The position numbers and the translations under genes are program-made. Below are positions 8,417-19,386 of a DNA stretch of 20,186 nucleotides, piece after piece; position 1 is the first letter of the stretch, and every line of letters starts with the position of its first letter. Source of the stretch: a virus. The notes under the pieces were generated by a model. The model did no database searches and was not told the DNA's origin. It saw only the letters and a list, made by a program, of their open reading frames with translations. Location of the stretch: positions 1 to 20,186 of the IMG/VR virus record IMGVR_UViG_3300046010_004868; one strand, 5' to 3'.

Positions 8417-8444
8417 AAAAAAAGGGGCGGTGCTATCCGCCCCT
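8417..8444 (-). terminator. Rho-independent terminator after the ssDNA-binding candidate gene
   Basis: On the - strand a perfect 8-bp stem (AGGGGCGG and CCGCCCCT, loop ATAGCA) is followed by seven T. It lies 17 nt after the stop of the gene ending at 8461 and 23 nt before the primase-helicase ATG at 8394, so it separates the two genes. Confidence 0.9.
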
Positions 8445-8460: not shown

Positions 8461-9336
8461 TTAGTCAGCCCATTCAGCCAATGTACTTTCAAGGTCAGTT
8501 GGGTTAGCTACTGTAGCTGAGGGCTTCTTCTCTCTTACAACGGGTTCAGCAACGGGAGCGTCTTTGAATAAGCCCTGCGGTGCTGGTTTAGGTGCAGGAG
8601 CTGGAGCTTCTTCTTTTTTAGCTGCTGAGAAGCTGGTAGTAATTGCTTGGATTGCTTCAAGTGAAGTAGCTTTATCTAATACAACCTCAATCTCTTTTTC
8701 ATCTAATGGACGTACTGCACGGAATACCATCTTAGGTGTTGCAGAATCTGTATCAAATCTAAGCTCGGTTACAACGTCAGTGACGTTCATACCATGACCC
8801 GCTAGTTGCTTGGCATATTGGAAGAGAGGCATTTTACCGTTCTCACCTTTACCAAATAAAGAGGTTGCCGCAAGTGATAACTCATATACGTCACCATGCA
8901 TATCATTCTCAAGTAATACTGCGAGGCGGTGAGTATATCTGCAAGCTCTACCAGAACCTTGACCAGACCCCGCGATGTTCATAGGGCAGGTAGCACAGTT
9001 GTGGTTTTTAGGAGTTTCAATAGTTGGACTAGGTACTTCACCATCCGTACTCCAGCAATCTGGGGAAGAGACTACACCTTCTTGGTATGTGCCTGCGTAA
9101 TACTGACGTGATGTTTTAGGTGCCGCCGCCGCAATGATAATGTTCATTGCACGGTCTTCATTCTTAGCAACCTCTTGACCACCAACAGTTAAGCGGAAGA
9201 TGTTACCTCTTACTGAGATGCGGCGAGCATCAGATGAGCCGCCCATAAGAGCCTTAGTAGTTTCACTCAACTCTCTTTTTGCAAAGTGTGCTGGAATTGC
9301 TGCGCCTGTTGTAAATAAACTCATTTCGTTAGCCAT
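8461..9336 (-). CDS. Probable ssDNA-binding/replication protein with a four-cysteine cluster
   Basis: This encodes 291 residues. I chose the ATG at 9336 because AGGAG lies 9 nt upstream; a longer in-frame start at 9363 would run deeper into the preceding HTH gene. Cysteines at about 94, 114, 117 and 132 (NCATCP and GRACRY context) could bind zinc. After residue 230 the chain becomes an Ala/Pro/Lys-rich linker and ends in an acidic tail with a bulky residue (LESTLAEWAD), the usual layout of phage and bacterial ssDNA-binding proteins. It is the last gene of a promoter-driven operon and lies beside the primase-helicase. The SSB role is inferred from tail, zinc-like cluster and context; I do not recognise a specific family. 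It overlaps the HTH gene by 8 nt. Confidence 0.6.
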   Translation of the reverse strand: MANEMSLFTTGAAIPAHFAKRELSETTKALMGGSSDARRISVRGNIFRLTVGGQEVAKNEDRAMNIIIAAAAPKTSRQYYAGTYQEGVVSSPDCWSTDGEVPSPTIETPKNHNCATCPMNIAGSGQGSGRACRYTHRLAVLLENDMHGDVYELSLAATSLFGKGENGKMPLFQYAKQLAGHGMNVTDVVTELRFDTDSATPKMVFRAVRPLDEKEIEVVLDKATSLEAIQAITTSFSAAKKEEAPAPAPKPAPQGLFKDAPVAEPVVREKKPSATVANPTDLESTLAEWAD

Positions 9337-9547
9337 GTGTATTTGCTCCTGATAATTTAACAATAGTAGTTTTTCTAGAGATTAGTGCTTTTACTTCGTT
9401 AGCACTTAATAGGTATTCATTACCTCTGCGGTAAGAACTTAATTTACCTGTGTTTCGTAGTTTGGAAATATACTGCCTAGAGCAGTTTAGTATCCCCATT
9501 ACTTGTTTAGTTGTCAAAAATACTTCTTCATCATCTTGCGGTTCCAT
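9329..9547 (-). CDS. Small helix-turn-helix protein (excisionase/MerR-like)
   Basis: This 72-residue protein matches the HTH_17/excisionase-like pattern: FLTTKQVMGILNCSRQYISK forms the HTH (residues 10-29), then a wing with RRGNEYLL and a third helix. Such proteins bind DNA as repressors, activators or recombination directionality factors. Start: ATG 9547, with AGAAGGA 6 nt upstream in the end of the previous gene. Its stop overlaps the next ATG by 8 nt (ATGGCTAA). It is the second gene of the operon driven by the promoter at 9976-10004, so it could bind the direct repeat there as autoregulator; that is a hypothesis. No integrase is visible, so excisionase function is not supported. Confidence 0.75.
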   Translation of the reverse strand: MEPQDDEEVFLTTKQVMGILNCSRQYISKLRNTGKLSSYRRGNEYLLSANEVKALISRKTTIVKLSGANTHG

Positions 9548-9548
9548 A

Positions 9549-9941
9549 TCATTTCCTTCTAACGGTTATGGCATATCTGCTATCAATATTCATGCCTGGA
9601 GGCATGAGGTTAGGGTTTTCTTCTAAAAAGGATTTCATGTTTGTCTGATGCACTCGTTGCTCAAGTAGCTCAAACGCATCGTTCTCCTTAATAAAGTTTT
9701 TCATACTGTTCCAATCGCTTGTCCAGTATCTTGTTTTAACCGTCCGTGTCACTGTACCTGCTGAGGTCTTAAGTCCGTCTGTCCCCGTCTCCTTGCAAAG
9801 CTCTAGTAGAGCCTGTTGTACTGCATCTTGTTGCTGTTTAATTCTATCGTCTGCTTCATCAAACTCTCGTTGCAGTTGCTGTCTTGCATCTCTCATTTTT
9901 ATGTAAGCTTTGACGAGTTGTTCTACATTTATTGTGCTCAT
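9549..9941 (-). CDS. Coiled-coil phage protein of unknown function
   Basis: This 130-residue protein has an N-terminal coiled coil (residues 5-50, rich in Gln, Arg, Glu and Asp). A compact C-terminal part follows, with a TSAGTV strand, a DWNSMKNFI helix, LLEQRVH and a final PPGMNIDSRYAITVRRK. The layout recalls small phage proteins sometimes labelled Gam-like or Gp157-like, but I cannot assign it. It is the first gene after the promoter; the ATG at 9941 is preceded by GAGGA with 5 nt spacing. Its stop lies 1 nt before the HTH gene. Confidence 0.75.
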   Translation of the reverse strand: MSTINVEQLVKAYIKMRDARQQLQREFDEADDRIKQQQDAVQQALLELCKETGTDGLKTSAGTVTRTVKTRYWTSDWNSMKNFIKENDAFELLEQRVHQTNMKSFLEENPNLMPPGMNIDSRYAITVRRK

Positions 9942-9975
9942 GTGATTCCTCGTGCCTTTCTTTGAAAGAGATTAT

Positions 9976-10004
9976 ATTGTACACCCTTGTAACCCTTGTG
10001 TCAA
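9976..10004 (-). promoter_or_regulatory. Near-consensus sigma70 promoter with a tandem repeat in the spacer
   Basis: On the - strand a perfect -35 box TTGACA (10004-9999) is followed by exactly 17 nt and TACAAT (9981-9976, five of six). The spacer is mostly a direct repeat, ACAAGGGTT then ACAAGGGTG (9999-9991 and 9990-9982), which could be an operator. Transcription would start near 9969, about 28 nt before the ATG at 9941. The -35 box overlaps the TGA stop of the helicase gene. This is the clearest promoter I found in the window. Confidence 0.85.
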
Positions 10005-11557
10005 CTGATAATATCTTTATACAAATCCAATAACTTAGTCTGAGCCGCACCTTTATCTTCTAATACGTTTAAGACTTTCTTCTCTACGGGTGAGCCTACA
10101 AGATGCACCACGCTACATCTGTTTACTTGCCCTGCACGGTGAATACGCGCATTGGCTTGCTTATAGGTTTCCAGTGAAAGTGTGACGCCCCACCACACGA
10201 TTGTATTAGCCGCGTGCAAAGTTACCCCATGCGCCGCCGCTTGCGGCTGGATAACTAGAATCTGCGGGTTGGGTGAAGTCTGGAATGCGTTGAATAATTC
10301 AGAGCGTTTGTTTGCATTAATGCCACCATGAATAACTCCCACACTGTAGCCTACATCTAATAATATTCTCTCTACTATCTCTATGGTGTGCTTAAACTGC
10401 ACGAACACAATCGTCTTATGGGATGTTTCAGCTACGATGTCCAGCAGTTCTGCCGCACGAGATTTCACATCAAACTCAATCACTTCTCCAGTATCCGAAT
10501 ACACCGCCCCAGATGAAAGTTGCAATAGTTTGTTTAAAGCAACCGCCGCATTAGCCGCAGTAATCTCTTCTCCTGCCGCTTGCATGAGCATCTCTTTCTT
10601 GAGCATCTTGTAATACTTCTCTTGTTGCGGAGATAGCGGTACATCTCTTGTCTGATACGTTAGCTCTGGTAGGTCTAGGCATTCTTCTTTAGTAAACCGT
10701 ATCGCAGGTTGCATGAACCTATGCACTATCTGCTCTGCATCGGGTCGGTTCTTAAACGTAAACTGCGAGGTGCGTATCTGCACCATATCTCGAAACGCAT
10801 TAAACGCTCTAGGTGTTTGCTTGGGGTTAACCAGTTTAATTAGTCCATACGCATCCACTGGTGACTGCGCCGCAGGTGTACCCGTTAACATCCAGAGCCA
10901 TGTGTCTGCAGTGACTAGACGGTTCATTGTTTTCCATCTGCGAGTCGATACGTTTTTTAAATGCGTAGCTTCATCTACTACAATCAAACCAAACCCGCCT
11001 TCAGCAATCTCCTTCTCTACTATCTCAACACCATCAAAGTTTATGATGACTATCTCTGCATTACCTTTAATAATCTGAGCACGCTTCTCTCTACTACCAT
11101 GTGCAATCTCAACTGACCGATGCATAGCTGTCTTAAATAAATCTTTGCGCCATGCCGCATCCATAATAGATAGAGGGCAAATCACAAGCATACGGCGTAT
11201 CACACCGAGTTTCATTAGATAGTCAGCCGCCCAGATAACAGAGTTAGTTTTTCCCGTACCCATCTCATTTAAGCAAAAGGCTCTTCGGTTAAGTGTTAGA
11301 AACTCTGATGTTACTCGCTGATGGTCAAAGGGTTTATACATCCCTGTCCACGTATACTGTGTGCGAATAGGTGAAGGCACGTTTTTAATACCTATGTTGT
11401 TTAGGATATGCGCTTCACCTAGCCCAAAGTTTACCCATACCTCTGCTGTACCAAAATCAATATCTTTAATTTTACTTTTAGGTATTACCCCTGTAATAGC
11501 ATCGGGGGCAGTGGTCTTGATAGACAAGACCTTATCTTGAATAACTTGTATTTCCAT
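10001..11557 (-). CDS. SNF2/DEAD-like superfamily 2 helicase
   Basis: This encodes 518 residues from the ATG at 11557, which has GGAG 5 nt upstream; the longer in-frame start at 11593 lacks such a site. All main superfamily 2 motifs are visible: GTGKT (100-104), DEAT (195-198), LTGTP (224-228), and in the second RecA domain VFVQF, VIHGG and QANARIHRAGQ (near 480, arginine finger). The order and the final motif fit the SNF2-like ATPases of phages, which translocate on or remodel DNA during replication or recombination. It follows small phage genes and a RecB-like nuclease, suggesting a recombination or replication role (inference). Confidence 0.9.
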   Translation of the reverse strand: MEIQVIQDKVLSIKTTAPDAITGVIPKSKIKDIDFGTAEVWVNFGLGEAHILNNIGIKNVPSPIRTQYTWTGMYKPFDHQRVTSEFLTLNRRAFCLNEMGTGKTNSVIWAADYLMKLGVIRRMLVICPLSIMDAAWRKDLFKTAMHRSVEIAHGSREKRAQIIKGNAEIVIINFDGVEIVEKEIAEGGFGLIVVDEATHLKNVSTRRWKTMNRLVTADTWLWMLTGTPAAQSPVDAYGLIKLVNPKQTPRAFNAFRDMVQIRTSQFTFKNRPDAEQIVHRFMQPAIRFTKEECLDLPELTYQTRDVPLSPQQEKYYKMLKKEMLMQAAGEEITAANAAVALNKLLQLSSGAVYSDTGEVIEFDVKSRAAELLDIVAETSHKTIVFVQFKHTIEIVERILLDVGYSVGVIHGGINANKRSELFNAFQTSPNPQILVIQPQAAAHGVTLHAANTIVWWGVTLSLETYKQANARIHRAGQVNRCSVVHLVGSPVEKKVLNVLEDKGAAQTKLLDLYKDIIS

Positions 11558-11571
11558 TGTCACTCCATACA

Positions 11572-11587
11572 GCCCCTTAAGGGGGCG
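11572..11587. other. Short GC hairpin in the helicase leader
   Basis: GCCCC and GGGGC arms flank TTAAG, between the stop of the 69-residue gene (11590) and the helicase start (11557). There is no T-tract, so it is unlikely to terminate transcription. It may shape the leader RNA just upstream of the helicase ribosome binding site. No function is claimed. Confidence 0.45.
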
Positions 11588-11589
11588 AA

Positions 11590-11799
11590 TCATTTATCTT
11601 CTAATACTTCAAATAGCTGAGGCTTATTCGTACTTCTATTAAAGTACCATGCTCTTACTTTGTTTAGGCACATCTTCCGTTCACTAATACGCGTTCTAAG
11701 AGTCATGGTACATAGAGCGTCTATGTGACGCTCTACTAAACTCTCAGGTAAACCAGACTCCGTTGCAATAATCTGCACTGACTTTACGGATACTTCCAT
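11590..11799 (-). CDS. Small protein of unknown function (69 residues)
   Basis: The 69-residue product is helical and basic, with an SVKSVQIIATESGLPESLVERHI stretch that resembles a short HTH-like helix pair. It then has TLRTRISERKM and a C-terminal YFNRSTNKPQLFEVLEDK. It starts 1 nt after the stop of the HNH gene and ends 32 nt before the helicase start. I recognise no family. DNA binding is possible but unproven. Confidence 0.65.
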   Translation of the reverse strand: MEVSVKSVQIIATESGLPESLVERHIDALCTMTLRTRISERKMCLNKVRAWYFNRSTNKPQLFEVLEDK

Positions 11800-13607: not shown

Positions 13608-14184
13608 GCTCAAGCTCCTTAAAGATATTTGGTGCAATACCATGTAGCTGGCGGTTAATCTCATGTGCCACTGCGCGTATCTCCCACTGCACTTCTTTAC
13701 CACTACGCAGTTTAATAAAGTCATACCACGCTTGGAAGTTACCGACTACCAGTAATTCTGTTGTCGTGCCTTGTGGTAAGATGAATCGTGCATCTTCTTT
13801 CTTTACGCCTTCGGCAATTAAATCTTTATAGACTTGAGTTAACTCAGCATACACAGTTTCAACTATTGTCTTATGTTCACCCTTAATTGAGGGGGGTATA
13901 ACCATTGCTACTTCACCTTCATTGCAATACCTCTGACTACGTTGCAAGAAATCTAAATGCTTACTGCGAACAAACTGATGTGAGCAAATACGACTAATGT
14001 CTGCAACTAAGAATGTCGCATGAGCAAAGCGTAGTGTAGATAGATGACCTTTAGTCACGCAGTGTTCTGCCCGTTTGATGCACTGCTCTGGTGATTGTTC
14101 ACCTGTCTTACCGTAGCATATACCTGCAAGTAATCCGATGTGTTCCTCTGGGTTAGGTGTGCTTTGCACTAGGGTTACTTTCAT
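13600..14184 (-). CDS. thyX: Flavin-dependent thymidylate synthase ThyX
   Basis: The 194-residue product catalyses FAD- and NADPH-dependent methylation of dUMP to dTMP with methylenetetrahydrofolate. Landmarks are GHLSTLRFAHATF (near 46-58) and the signature region RSKHLDFLQRSQRY (R73 to Y86). The classic RHR-x7-S signature is here RSK-x7-S: the spacing and active-site serine (S83) are kept, but His and the second Arg are replaced by Ser and Lys. The C-terminus has ILPQGTTTELLVVGNFQAW and LRSGKEVQWEIR, as in the family. Start: ATG 14184, with GGGAGGA 6 nt upstream. dUTPase just upstream would supply its dUMP. Length is slightly below the usual 210-250. Confidence 0.92.
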   Translation of the reverse strand: MKVTLVQSTPNPEEHIGLLAGICYGKTGEQSPEQCIKRAEHCVTKGHLSTLRFAHATFLVADISRICSHQFVRSKHLDFLQRSQRYCNEGEVAMVIPPSIKGEHKTIVETVYAELTQVYKDLIAEGVKKEDARFILPQGTTTELLVVGNFQAWYDFIKLRSGKEVQWEIRAVAHEINRQLHGIAPNIFKELEHE

Positions 14185-14492
14185 ATTTTGTCCTCCCATG
14201 AGAAGTTGTATCTATCTTTTGCTTTAAATATCAGTAAGCCTCTTTCATCAACCTCATCAACCTCATCAACCTCATCACACGTAAACTCAGGCATATTACA
14301 AAAAGTATAAGGAGATTTCTCATCAGGTACGCTGTCATATAACAAGCGTAATACCTCTTGCATAATCCAGAACTTATCCATTACTTCTGTAAACTCTTTA
14401 AGAAACTCTTCACTAACCTCAACCTCTTTACCAAACCCATCACCTATATCATATATGGGGTAGAGCTCATCCTCACTAACTTTTAGTTTCAT
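14181..14492 (-). CDS. Acidic protein of unknown function
   Basis: The 103-residue product (ATG 14492, GGAGAG upstream; overlap of 4 nt with the preceding stop) is strongly acidic. The N-terminal half is helical (EEFLKEFTEVMDKFWIMQEV). The second half contains a DEV tripeptide repeat (DEVDEVDEVDE) produced by a 9-bp tandem repeat, then LLIFKAKDRYNFSW. I recognise no family. Its stop overlaps the thyX ATG (ATGA), so it is translated just ahead of thyX. A longer in-frame start at 14537 lies inside the previous gene. Confidence 0.65.
   Translation of the reverse strand: MKLKVSEDELYPIYDIGDGFGKEVEVSEEFLKEFTEVMDKFWIMQEVLRLLYDSVPDEKSPYTFCNMPEFTCDEVDEVDEVDERGLLIFKAKDRYNFSWEDKI
14246..14277 (-). repeat. 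3.5 copies of a 9-bp tandem repeat encoding DEV
   Basis: CATCAACCT (+ strand) is repeated three times at 14246-14272 and followed by CATCA. On the coding - strand this gives the DEVDEVDEVDE stretch of the acidic protein. The unit is a multiple of three, so copy-number change would keep the frame. Confidence 0.95.
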
Positions 14493-14689
14493 TTCTTCTC
14501 TCCAGTAAGTTGATAAGGATGACAGGTTAAATTCCATCTGCCTGCAAACTGCAAATTTTTAAATGCAAAATCCTGTTTAACTGCCGCGCTTTCACACGAT
14601 GCCTTATCTGCAAAATCGATTGTTGATTGTGTAAGCTCACCGTGAGTTGTTACAGCGATAATTAAAATATAGGCTGTTGTACTAATCAT
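14489..14689 (-). CDS. Small probable exported protein with a cysteine pair
   Basis: The 66-residue product (ATG 14689, inside the end of the dUTPase gene, with GGAG upstream) starts with a hydrophobic MISTTAYILIIAVTTHGE that could be a signal peptide or anchor. A short mature part follows, with KASCESAAVKQ and NLTCHPYQ (two Cys). The arrangement of a hydrophobic start, ACxxA helix and terminal Cys is shared with the 82-residue protein at 19801-20049, so the two may be related. A disulfide-stabilised periplasmic domain is plausible. No function is recognised. Confidence 0.6.
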   Translation of the reverse strand: MISTTAYILIIAVTTHGELTQSTIDFADKASCESAAVKQDFAFKNLQFAGRWNLTCHPYQLTGEKK

Positions 14690-16722: not shown

Positions 16723-19386
16723 CTAACAATCAGCTATACTTCTACCCCAGCCGCCCTCAGCCGCTAGTGGTATACCTTGCATCCACTCTGGTGGTCTGCA
16801 CATCTCTTCAATTAAAAAGTCTAAGGCTTCCTGCGCCTCATCCTCTGGCACAACTATATACAGCGCGTCATGAATAGACAGCGCGATTTGATACCTCTTA
16901 GCTATGCGAACCATAGCCTCTGACATGATGCATCGTGCCGTACCTTGCACCAGATTGTTTGTTAACTTACCGCCGTAAAGTCTATCATATCCATTGCGCA
17001 GTTTATACTTGTAACCCTTCTCGCCAGACGATTCGTCTATCACATTCTCAAGCTGTGGGTACTGCATATATAGACCAGACGGGAACTTCACACCACGCTT
17101 ACCATCTACTATATACAAACCATTGCGACCAAATGTAAACGTACCATCGTCAGCGATTGCCTTAATAGCACTACTACACGTCTTCCAAAACGCTGTCACC
17201 CCTGTGTATGTATTGCGGTAGAGGTCTACGATGCGCTTCGCCTCTGCCTCACCTAAGTCAGTACCTGACTGTGATTTTATAGAGTTTTGGAGTTTAGAAT
17301 GTCCTACACCAAAGATAAGCCCGAGCTGGCAGTTATGGACAATTATAGGACCTCTATTTGTAAGTACTGTAAATCTATTTCTCGTACCTACTGAGTTCAA
17401 GTCGTAGACGGGTAACCTCATCTTCGAGGTCATTGACCCTTCGTTTGTTTCTGTTATTGTCGCTCCTTGAGACGAACCTAATATTCCCCGGCTCGTACCC
17501 TCTATTGTTGTCTCTCCTGTCCATATCGTACTCTGGGATGTCCCATCCTTCCAAGGTCTGTACATACTTAAGGAATTCCCCTTTGTCATTACGCCACTCA
17601 TCACATACAGTAATTCCTCTTGCCCCATACGATTTGTACGACCCATTAGAGGGTGTATGACATCTAGTAATTGCTGCACATAGCCTATTAAGTAGCCTAG
17701 CCCTATGGTCATCGTCTGGCATACTACTAATGTAGTTCCAATATCTTTTTGTAGCCCCTGCTTTACGAGCGCACTTAAAGCATCTAGTAGTCTTAAACTC
17801 TTTGAAGTTATGCTGGTCCAACGTGTATTCAGGAAACCCACAATCACATTTAACAATGAGGGCTTTGAGTCCCCCTTTTGCCCCCAACACGTACCCTGTA
17901 ACGGTAATTTTTCCGACCCTGCATCCAATACTTGGGATAGGTCGCACTCTGTTGAACCCACCTGATCTGCTCGTACCCACTTCTGTCCTGACCACACTAG
18001 GTGATCTGGAGTTAACCAAATCCCGCAAATCTCTAGCGTTTCTTTCAAACCGTTCGTAACTAATCCTAGGTGGCATACCCATTCCTCCCCATCCCATACC
18101 CTATCATTTATGGAAACTTTTTCTATAGGTTTCCACCCCGATTCACATAGTACAGGAGTTCCCTTGGCAAGACAAGTTTTACCGATAAACCGCTGTGCCT
18201 TAGTTACCTCCTCGTATGGCACGTTAAACGCAAGGGATGCAAACTCCTTATACAAATCCCGACCATCACCTAGTGACTTGAGAGCCTCCATCTCATCACA
18301 TACCCAAAGACCCACACGCAGTTCAATGTTAGATAAGTCAGCCCCTACTACGACCATACCATCAGGTGCAATAATAGACTTCTTAAGTGTGCTATCTCTT
18401 GGTAAGTTCTGGAAATTTACCTTCTGCCCACCACCTGCTGACCACCTGCCTGTTGCCGCACCATAATAGTTTAGCGGTATGGGTAAGTAATTAGTTCGTT
18501 TAGCGATTCCAATAAAGCGTTCAGTCCGTGTTTCTTCGATTGTACTCTTAACACCAAGTCGCGTTGCGACCAGTACCTGCACATCTGGGTTCTCATGTTC
18601 GAGTAAGTCTTTGAGTCCGTCATCAGTCTTTGCGAAGGCATACGTTAGTTTTCCTGTAGTAGGTGATACTTTCATTGGTACATCAACCCCGTAGCTCTCA
18701 AGCAGTGCCGCGAACTTAGGGTTACTCATCAACTCTTTCTTATCGGCAACCACTCGACTCAGTAAGTCTTCCTTCTTTGTGCGTACTTCATGCAGGTAGG
18801 ACTCCAGCATAGGCAGGTCGATAGTTAGCGTAGGGTTTGTTGCCATCTTAATAGTAATATCAATTAGCGATAGCTCCTGTGTGTTGAAGTGCGGCATCAG
18901 TGCATGGAATAGCTTATACGTAACCTCCACATCGTTCACACAGTATTCACCATACCTTGCAAGCTCTTCCTCAGTAAAGTCTTTGAGGTGTTTACCCAAT
19001 GCGTTTACTACCTCCGTACCCTTCGCCCCTAGTTCATAATACTCTACTAGTTTAGCTAGGCTACCGCCTACTGATATGCCATGTATTGCACGAGCCATAG
19101 ACAGGGTGTCTATATACCTCTTAGCCGTGATACCAAAATACTCTGATAGAATCGTTGCATCAAAGAATGTGTTATGGCACAGCAGGATTTGATTAGGTAT
19201 ATCGTATAAGTCTAGGTACGCCTTAAGCTCCTCCTTAGTTCCTGTGTAAAAGATAGTAGGTTTATCGTCTACCTTGATGCCTACACCAATCACCTCAAAC
19301 TCATCACCGTTTACATACTCTTCAGTGGTTAGCTTAGATAAGCTGTAGGTCTTGCTGTAATACGTTTCCATATCTAGCGTAATCAT
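16723..19386 (-). CDS. polA: Family A DNA polymerase with proofreading domain, interrupted by an in-frame intein
   Basis: The 887-residue precursor contains a 281-residue intein (405-685); the spliced enzyme would have 606 residues. The N-terminus is a 3'-5' exonuclease: DME (D5, E7), HNTFFDATIL (D76) and YCVND (Y148, D152). Polymerase motif A is ADLSNIELR (D350), and motif C is SIHDALYIVV (H839, D840). Motif B, the O-helix, is split: R399 and K403 lie before the intein, then CQLGLIFG (686-693). After splicing it reads R-x3-K-x3-L-x3-F, so the equivalents of E. coli F762 and Y766 are Leu688 and Phe692. There is no 5'-3' exonuclease domain. It is the replicative polymerase by context (primase-helicase, helicase, SSB candidate). 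Start: ATG 19386, overlapping the previous stop (ATGA). Activity should depend on splicing, because the intein breaks the nucleotide-binding helix. Confidence 0.95.
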   Translation of the reverse strand: MITLDMETYYSKTYSLSKLTTEEYVNGDEFEVIGVGIKVDDKPTIFYTGTKEELKAYLDLYDIPNQILLCHNTFFDATILSEYFGITAKRYIDTLSMARAIHGISVGGSLAKLVEYYELGAKGTEVVNALGKHLKDFTEEELARYGEYCVNDVEVTYKLFHALMPHFNTQELSLIDITIKMATNPTLTIDLPMLESYLHEVRTKKEDLLSRVVADKKELMSNPKFAALLESYGVDVPMKVSPTTGKLTYAFAKTDDGLKDLLEHENPDVQVLVATRLGVKSTIEETRTERFIGIAKRTNYLPIPLNYYGAATGRWSAGGGQKVNFQNLPRDSTLKKSIIAPDGMVVVGADLSNIELRVGLWVCDEMEALKSLGDGRDLYKEFASLAFNVPYEEVTKAQRFIGKTCLAKGTPVLCESGWKPIEKVSINDRVWDGEEWVCHLGLVTNGLKETLEICGIWLTPDHLVWSGQKWVRADQVGSTECDLSQVLDAGSEKLPLQGTCWGQKGDSKPSLLNVIVGFLNTRWTSITSKSLRLLDALSALVKQGLQKDIGTTLVVCQTMTIGLGYLIGYVQQLLDVIHPLMGRTNRMGQEELLYVMSGVMTKGNSLSMYRPWKDGTSQSTIWTGETTIEGTSRGILGSSQGATITETNEGSMTSKMRLPVYDLNSVGTRNRFTVLTNRGPIIVHNCQLGLIFGVGHSKLQNSIKSQSGTDLGEAEAKRIVDLYRNTYTGVTAFWKTCSSAIKAIADDGTFTFGRNGLYIVDGKRGVKFPSGLYMQYPQLENVIDESSGEKGYKYKLRNGYDRLYGGKLTNNLVQGTARCIMSEAMVRIAKRYQIALSIHDALYIVVPEDEAQEALDFLIEEMCRPPEWMQGIPLAAEGGWGRSIADC
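17375..18076 (-). CDS. HNH homing endonuclease encoded out of frame inside the intein
   Basis: This 233-residue protein is read in the -1 frame relative to the polymerase, and its gene overlaps intein codons 437-671. I chose the ATG at 18076 because GGGGAGGA lies 6 nt upstream; in-frame ATGs at 18097 and 18082 are worse placed. After about 50 residues of unclear sequence there is a GCRVGKITVTGY strand and a zinc ribbon (C77, C79, C99, C102). Then come YKSYGARGITVCDEW (147-161) and the HNH core DMDRRDNNRGYEPGNIRF (184-201), then SDNNRNKR and a terminal coiled coil. These are hallmarks of phage HNH homing endonucleases. It probably cuts intein-free polymerase genes to spread the intein (inference). 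The N-terminal 50 residues share DNA with intein block B and may not be free to evolve. Confidence 0.88.
   Translation of the reverse strand: MPPRISYERFERNARDLRDLVNSRSPSVVRTEVGTSRSGGFNRVRPIPSIGCRVGKITVTGYVLGAKGGLKALIVKCDCGFPEYTLDQHNFKEFKTTRCFKCARKAGATKRYWNYISSMPDDDHRARLLNRLCAAITRCHTPSNGSYKSYGARGITVCDEWRNDKGEFLKYVQTLEGWDIPEYDMDRRDNNRGYEPGNIRFVSRSDNNRNKRRVNDLEDEVTRLRLELSRYEK
18083..18090 (-). promoter_or_regulatory. Shine-Dalgarno sequence for the nested HNH gene, inside intein block A coding sequence
   Basis: GGGGAGGA sits 6 nt before the ATG at 18076. In the intein frame the same bases encode part of DGEE. It is as strong as the sites before thyX and the HNH gene at 12097, and shows that the nested frame has its own initiation signal. 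Confidence 0.8.

Follow-up and report, generated by a model that had tools for sequence, protein, structure and literature searches.

A promoter of the sigma-70 type located on the minus strand at positions 10004 to 9976 of virus record IMGVR_UViG_3300046010_004868 probably starts a separate transcription unit that encodes, in order, a Gam-like protein, a winged-HTH protein and an SSB-like protein. On this reading, both promoter boxes and the distance between them are conserved, the sequence of the spacer is specific to each lineage, and the 9-bp tandem repeat found in the spacer would have been produced by base changes. The analysis covers the whole 20,186-nt stretch of the record, which we call the window. 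Sequence comparison shows that the promoter keeps its position in relatives and that the repeat is restricted to one clade, and it also shows the order of the genes and the terminator-like hairpin. We infer that host RNA polymerase is used, where transcription starts and why extra expression would be needed.

The promoter and its probable transcription unit

The features of the region are listed below in the direction of transcription.

10001-11593, minus strand: SNF2-type helicase gene, upstream, ending inside the -35 box
9999-10004, minus strand: -35 box TTGACA, which encloses the helicase TGA stop codon (10001-10003)
9982-9998, minus strand: 17-nt spacer CAAGGGTTACAAGGGTG, which differs between clades
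9992-9999, minus strand: first copy of ACAAGGGT, overlapping the end of the -35 box by its first A
9983-9990, minus strand: second copy of ACAAGGGT, 9 bp from the first
9976-9981, minus strand: -10 box TACAAT, giving 11 of 12 consensus matches together with the -35 box
9956-9968, minus strand: inverted repeat CTTTCAAAGAAAG (CTTTC-AAA-GAAAG) in the sequence at the expected transcript start and leader
9549-9941, minus strand: first gene, for a Gam-like (Pam3 gp33-like) protein, from Pfam and phrog matches
9329-9547, minus strand: second gene, for a winged-HTH protein of 72 residues (Pfam HTH_17, 35.5 bits, cut-off 27)
8461-9333, minus strand: third gene, for an OB-type protein (SSB-like, phiC31 gp3-like) in which four cysteines are invariant
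8417-8443, minus strand: terminator-like hairpin GGGGCGG-ATAGCA-CCGCCCC-TTTTTTT at the 3' end of the unit

An earlier note on this DNA had singled out TTGACA-17-TACAAT as the best promoter present and had placed it within the helicase stop codon, and both statements hold. In a consensus scan of the window, no sigma-70-like site scores better than this one, which ranks first among 37 promoter-like sites, and its spacing falls within the 16-18 nt expected for near-consensus hexamers. Given that shuffled windows contain 43.8 promoter-like sites on average, the consensus match by itself is no evidence. Like a vegetative sigma-70 promoter of bacteria or of phages that use host RNA polymerase, the site combines TTGACA, a 17-nt spacer and TACAAT with an AGGA-type ribosome-binding sequence, which precedes the next gene in the window. 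It differs from such promoters in that its -35 box carries the stop codon of the upstream gene and its spacer is filled by a clade-specific tandem. Transcription would be expected to start near position 9969.

Comparison with relatives indicates that the promoter is genuine. Loci were gathered by using the SSB-like protein (80 loci) and the Gam-like protein (80 loci), with many contigs occurring in both sets. The 130 loci retained comprise the window, 78 of the 80 SSB-set loci (L022 and L037 have no upstream sequence) and 51 of the 80 Gam-set loci; the 29 Gam-set loci omitted are 28 contigs that were already included and the fragment L129. Some contigs nevertheless entered twice, and 36 of the 130 rows duplicate the Gam and upstream sequence of another row. 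The loci were grouped at 90% DNA identity of the Gam gene into 42 clusters, a number that varies with the choice of this cut, and one locus with enough sequence was used for each cluster.

Exact TTGACA is present in the 100 nt upstream of the Gam-like gene in 29 of the 42 clusters, and TTGAC[AGT] in 34, such that the hexamer is kept at the same gene boundary in most clusters. The corresponding control counts upstream of the SSB-like gene are 0 and 1 of 41, those upstream of the HTH gene are 0 and 1 of 11, and those for all 100-nt tiles are 58 and 182 of 2263. Sequences upstream of the helicase gene, with 4 and 6 of 19, exceed this tile background. All eight clusters that lack TTGAC[AGT] before Gam have a helicase-Gam gap of 270-1110 nt. 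Three of these eight carry TTGACA directly after the helicase gene, and five of the 42 clusters have neither arrangement. Wherever the -35 box is present, the best -10 sequence at 16-18 nt matches at four to six of six positions, although the scan takes the best site per locus and therefore only the comparison of exact hexamers with controls is free of selection. Compared with the window, L007-L018 have differences at 0-1 of the 12 box positions and at 1-14 of the 17 spacer positions (0 in L008).

The overlap of stop codon and promoter is itself recurrent, with the helicase stop codon lying within TTGACA in 17 of the 42 clusters, distant relatives included. Among cultured phages, Pseudomonas phage Rollin (L233) has TTGACA-16-TATACT, starting at position 2136, at the stop codon of a helicase homologue (gene 571-2139, 36% identity); one additional gene comes next in Rollin, followed by the Gam-like and SSB-like genes. 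Acinetobacter phage Effie likewise has TTGACA across the stop codon of its helicase homologue, with a poor -10 sequence. The site in Xp15 is weak, and no convincing promoter was seen at the corresponding place in RHph_TM3_14A. The promoter can be followed in relatives down to approximately 40-50% protein identity and thus could be tested in a cultured relative. A literature search for 'phage Rollin' with Pseudomonas found nothing, and the DNA of the window had no match by DNA similarity in the phage collection.

In the mechanism we favour, a promoter of the host sigma-70 type would lie within a long co-directional cluster of replication genes and would initiate a separate transcript, carrying the Gam-like, winged-HTH and SSB-like genes, that ends at the terminator. 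The cell could then make a single-strand-binding-type protein independently of the helicase message. The -35 box, the -10 box and their spacing would be what is conserved, the sequence of the spacer would be lineage-specific, and the 9-bp tandem, instead of being a conserved operator, would have arisen through base changes in one clade. A search for phage-type RNA polymerase gave no match in seven records, but no control matched either.

The 3' boundary of the proposed unit is marked by the terminator-like hairpin. Of 40 clusters, 15 have such a hairpin after the SSB-like gene, compared with 0 of 41 after the Gam gene and 0 of 42 after the helicase gene; a simple scan left the hairpin of the window (8443-8417) unlisted. 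Within the unit, the HTH and SSB-like genes overlap by ATGA. The Gam-like protein matches Pfam DUF7307 (E 1.7e-5, 25.2 bits, cut-off 27) and Mu_Gam-like (E 8.4e-4), both below cut-off, and phrog_13900 (E 2.1e-23), which is labelled minor head protein. Cysteines 93, 113, 116 and 131 of the SSB-like protein are invariant in 43 aligned sequences, which suggests a zinc site in an OB-like protein. The predicted model, of modest confidence (mean pLDDT 69.1), has an OB-like core that aligns with phiC31 gp3 (Z 8.3, 152 residues aligned, rmsd 4.2) and with the T4-type gp32 of RB69 (Z 6.1, 157 residues aligned, rmsd 4.7). A sequence profile of the protein had no match up to E 1 among solved structures.

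The tandem repeat in the spacer

The earlier note described the spacer as two copies of ACAAGGGT and proposed that this tandem serves as an operator. The pair is indeed present at 9-bp spacing. However, because the first A of copy one lies in the -35 box, the spacer is not strictly two copies. Exact 8-mer pairs at spacings of 8-12 occur 1.9 times on average per shuffled window when overlapping pairs are counted, and at least one such pair is present in 80% of 300 shuffled windows. The chance of finding an exact pair in a given 29-nt region is approximately 0.001, and the direct-repeat p value for the 55-nt promoter stretch was printed as 0.00, corresponding to at most 1 in 300 shuffles.

To place the repeat among relatives, we used a leader motif that fits only clades A, A' and B. 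A scan of the collection with this motif yielded 64 stretches, of which 23 had TTGAC upstream; removal of the unrelated L223 left 22 records, not counting the window, that share promoter and leader. Nine of these have the exact pair, one (L007) has a broken second copy that reads ACAATGGT, five have neither copy and seven have an unrelated spacer. The HTH protein of L007 is identical to that of the window. The five records with neither copy encode nearly the same recognition helix; in four loci with both copies broken (L009, L010, L011 and L053), the HTH protein is 82-89% identical to that of the window and its recognition segment differs by one residue. Thus, the exact repeat is not kept wherever the DNA-reading residues are kept, with L007 and these four loci as the exceptions.

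The search of the rest of the genome for further repeat pairs that the earlier note had called for gave little. The 64.8-kb and 64.5-kb sister records each contain a single exact pair. Of the records of ten relatives, G001-G004 have one exact pair each and the remaining six have none. When up to three mismatches were allowed, the window gained one site, at 17005-17021 with three mismatches, and a reversed control pattern also gave one; the three-mismatch sequence recurs in three of the ten relatives' records. As judged from the records found, the 9-bp tandem is limited to one narrow phage clade.

Loci that lack an HTH gene between the Gam and SSB genes (L055, L056, L060, L062-L067, L070, L071 and L079) retain the promoter. 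Given that the exact pair is bound to one clade and is broken alongside the same HTH protein, and that the promoter persists in these loci, we conclude that the repeat is not a conserved operator; an operator role for the exact repeat is unlikely. What survives of the proposed operon is the genuine promoter of a Gam-like/HTH/SSB-like unit.

We also considered an origin of the repeat by tandem duplication and rejected it. At the place of CAAG in clade A, clades A' and B both read TGGG, and a G of the second copy is T in A'; base changes fit this pattern better. In a tree of the downstream genes, L007 nests inside clade A, and therefore reversal or recombination probably accounts for its broken copy.

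The HTH protein and possible autoregulation

An alternative with a broader view of the operator makes the HTH protein an autorepressor of the BldC type, assembling head to tail over the spacer and the -10 region. Its operator could be inexact and would change with the recognition helix, and the tandem of this clade would be one version of it. We regard this alternative as rather unlikely, although several observations speak in its favour.

The earlier note was correct in identifying the second gene as encoding an HTH protein, with HTH_17 scoring above its cut-off. A search of solved structures with a profile of the family found BldC (6ama, E 1.3e-6; 6amk, E 2.4e-6) and CvkR (E 1.4e-4), with weaker matches to RdfS (E 0.012) and phage Xis (4j2n, E 0.039); the repeat protein 8vd6 ranked third, with no stretch passing alone. 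The single sequence had no match to solved structures up to E 10, and so BldC is found by profile only. The predicted model (pLDDT 82.5) aligns with BldC (Z 8.2, rmsd 2.3, 56 residues aligned) and Xis (Z 7.9, rmsd 1.7, 52 residues aligned), and BldC is its best Foldseek hit (E 4.5e-3). On the evidence of this model, the protein is a member of the HTH_17 / BldC-Xis winged-HTH fold group, for which BldC is the nearest solved relative by both profile and fold. The shared fold does not show function.

Streptomyces BldC, a MerR-like member of the HTH_17 group, is likewise a small stand-alone winged-HTH protein, and its protomers bind 9-bp direct repeats head to tail (PMC5859096), the same spacing as in the window. 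However, the BldC contact residues Arg30, His46, Arg47 and Arg48 are replaced in the phage protein by Lys29, Glu44, Tyr45 and Leu46, such that it does not qualify as BldC proper, and the repeat in the window, a candidate site only, is unlike the BldC site AATTXXXX(C). RdfS, which like the Xis excisionases belongs to the same fold group, binds its own promoter and exerts negative autoregulation, with no consensus motif identified (PMC11963761). This was the only paper that our literature search on negative autoregulation by excisionases through direct repeats in bacteriophages returned. An excisionase role for the HTH protein itself was set aside: in contrast to those systems, no match to tyrosine integrase (PF00589) was present in seven possibly incomplete records of the phage group, while the control matched 14 of 14.

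The remaining support comes from the evolution of the spacer, which we compared with four-fold sites of the Gam gene (approximately 38-50 sites per pair, with pairwise p values unadjusted). Within clade B, the spacer differs at 0 of 17 positions despite 11-40% four-fold divergence. For L012 and L016, all 17 positions are identical while 17 of 43 four-fold sites differ (Fisher p 0.0013), and thus the clade B spacer looks constrained. Between A' and B, the spacer differs at 10 of 17 positions at 18-41% four-fold divergence (L010 and L016, 10/17 versus 8/44, p 0.0038), and between the window and clade B at 14 of 17 versus 10 of 44. Plain drift does not easily give an A-B spacer difference that exceeds the four-fold level. 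As read from these alignments, the whole spacer appears to track the recognition helix of the HTH protein better than it tracks the intervening Gam gene, and in the A-B comparison DNA identity falls at the promoter and again at the HTH gene but is higher in the Gam gene between them.

Other comparisons run against the autorepressor. Between the window and L009-L011, the spacer differs at 4-6 of 17 positions, the four-fold sites at 5-6 of 45 and the boxes at 0 of 12, which indicates that the spacer is not specially conserved in the clade of the window. No significant difference between spacer and four-fold sites was found for the pairs window-L009, L019-L020, L024-L026 and L043-L044, and the spacer is no more conserved than four-fold sites in comparisons inside A/A' or among L019-L025. 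Parts of the SSB-like and primase genes show a drop in A-B identity as well, so the dip at the HTH gene is not unique. Moreover, the tests draw on few lineages, the A-B change is a single event, and the helicase and Gam genes bear evident marks of recombination. Only one of 14 HTH-bearing promoters, that of the window, contains a direct repeat at p<0.1. The broken copies described above, some beside an identical or nearly identical HTH protein, and the persistence of the promoter without an intervening HTH gene count against the autorepressor as well.

Regardless, given that the protein is BldC-like and that divergence of the spacer goes with divergence of the recognition helix, one may tentatively entertain that the HTH protein controls its own promoter through the spacer or the -10 region. 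A more elaborate version, which we consider unlikely, is that a phage BldC-like regulator oligomerises over the spacer and -10 box of its own SSB-type operon, that regulator and operator turn over as a linked pair while the Gam gene between them recombines separately, and that the tandem is the operator of one clade. From our analysis, BldC-like autoregulation of this promoter is a possible, testable lead rather than a finding. It opens a clear test of autoregulation of a replication operon by the small BldC-like proteins of these uncultured phages; should the promoter alone prove real, the result is a useful annotation and little beyond.

Two further observations concern this region. Relative to L001-L008 and L051, the window has 0-2 differences at 46-47 four-fold sites of the Gam-like gene and none at 30 of the HTH gene, with 5-20% in the helicase gene, and the promoter-Gam-HTH block of the closest clade shows signs of recombination or a recent sweep. 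The spacer of clade B (L012-L018), identical across the members compared, contains a palindrome with 6-bp arms beside the -10 box, ACAGTA-GG-TACTGT, with p 0.20 against shuffles.

The leader inverted repeat and other features of the window

The inverted repeat CTTTCAAAGAAAG (9956-9968) might be the functional control element in place of the spacer repeat, acting as a dimer operator or as a 5' hairpin. The leader is nearly unchanged between clades A and B, with one of 16 positions different, while the spacer diverges at 10-14 of 17. In addition, inverted repeats at p<0.1 occur at seven of 14 HTH-bearing promoters and at one of 13 promoters without an HTH gene, in an exploratory test run once with spacers up to five differences apart merged. 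However, these repeats are placed differently between clades, the p value for the window itself is 0.24, and an initially transcribed sequence may be kept for promoter escape alone. As an RNA structure the leader was rejected: four leaders were folded, and none does better than shuffles (z 0.39, 0.21, 0.09 and -0.71), and the whole window has no Rfam match at gathering scores. Overall, we judge a control function for this inverted repeat to be improbable.

The tandem repeat is extremely unlikely to serve as an iteron in a replication origin, since it has only two copies, recurs as no other exact pair in the two 64-kb sister records and is absent from related clades, even though it sits among replication genes with a spacing near one helical turn.

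Elsewhere in the window, a tandem array of a 9-bp unit at 14245-14277, within a 118-aa ORF (14181-14537), encodes a repeated VDE peptide. The DNA polymerase gene (16723-19386) carries an intein-like or endonuclease insertion, with a match to phrog_93 at residues 424-692, and a 240-aa ORF (17375-18097) on the same strand in another frame overlaps the region of this insertion.
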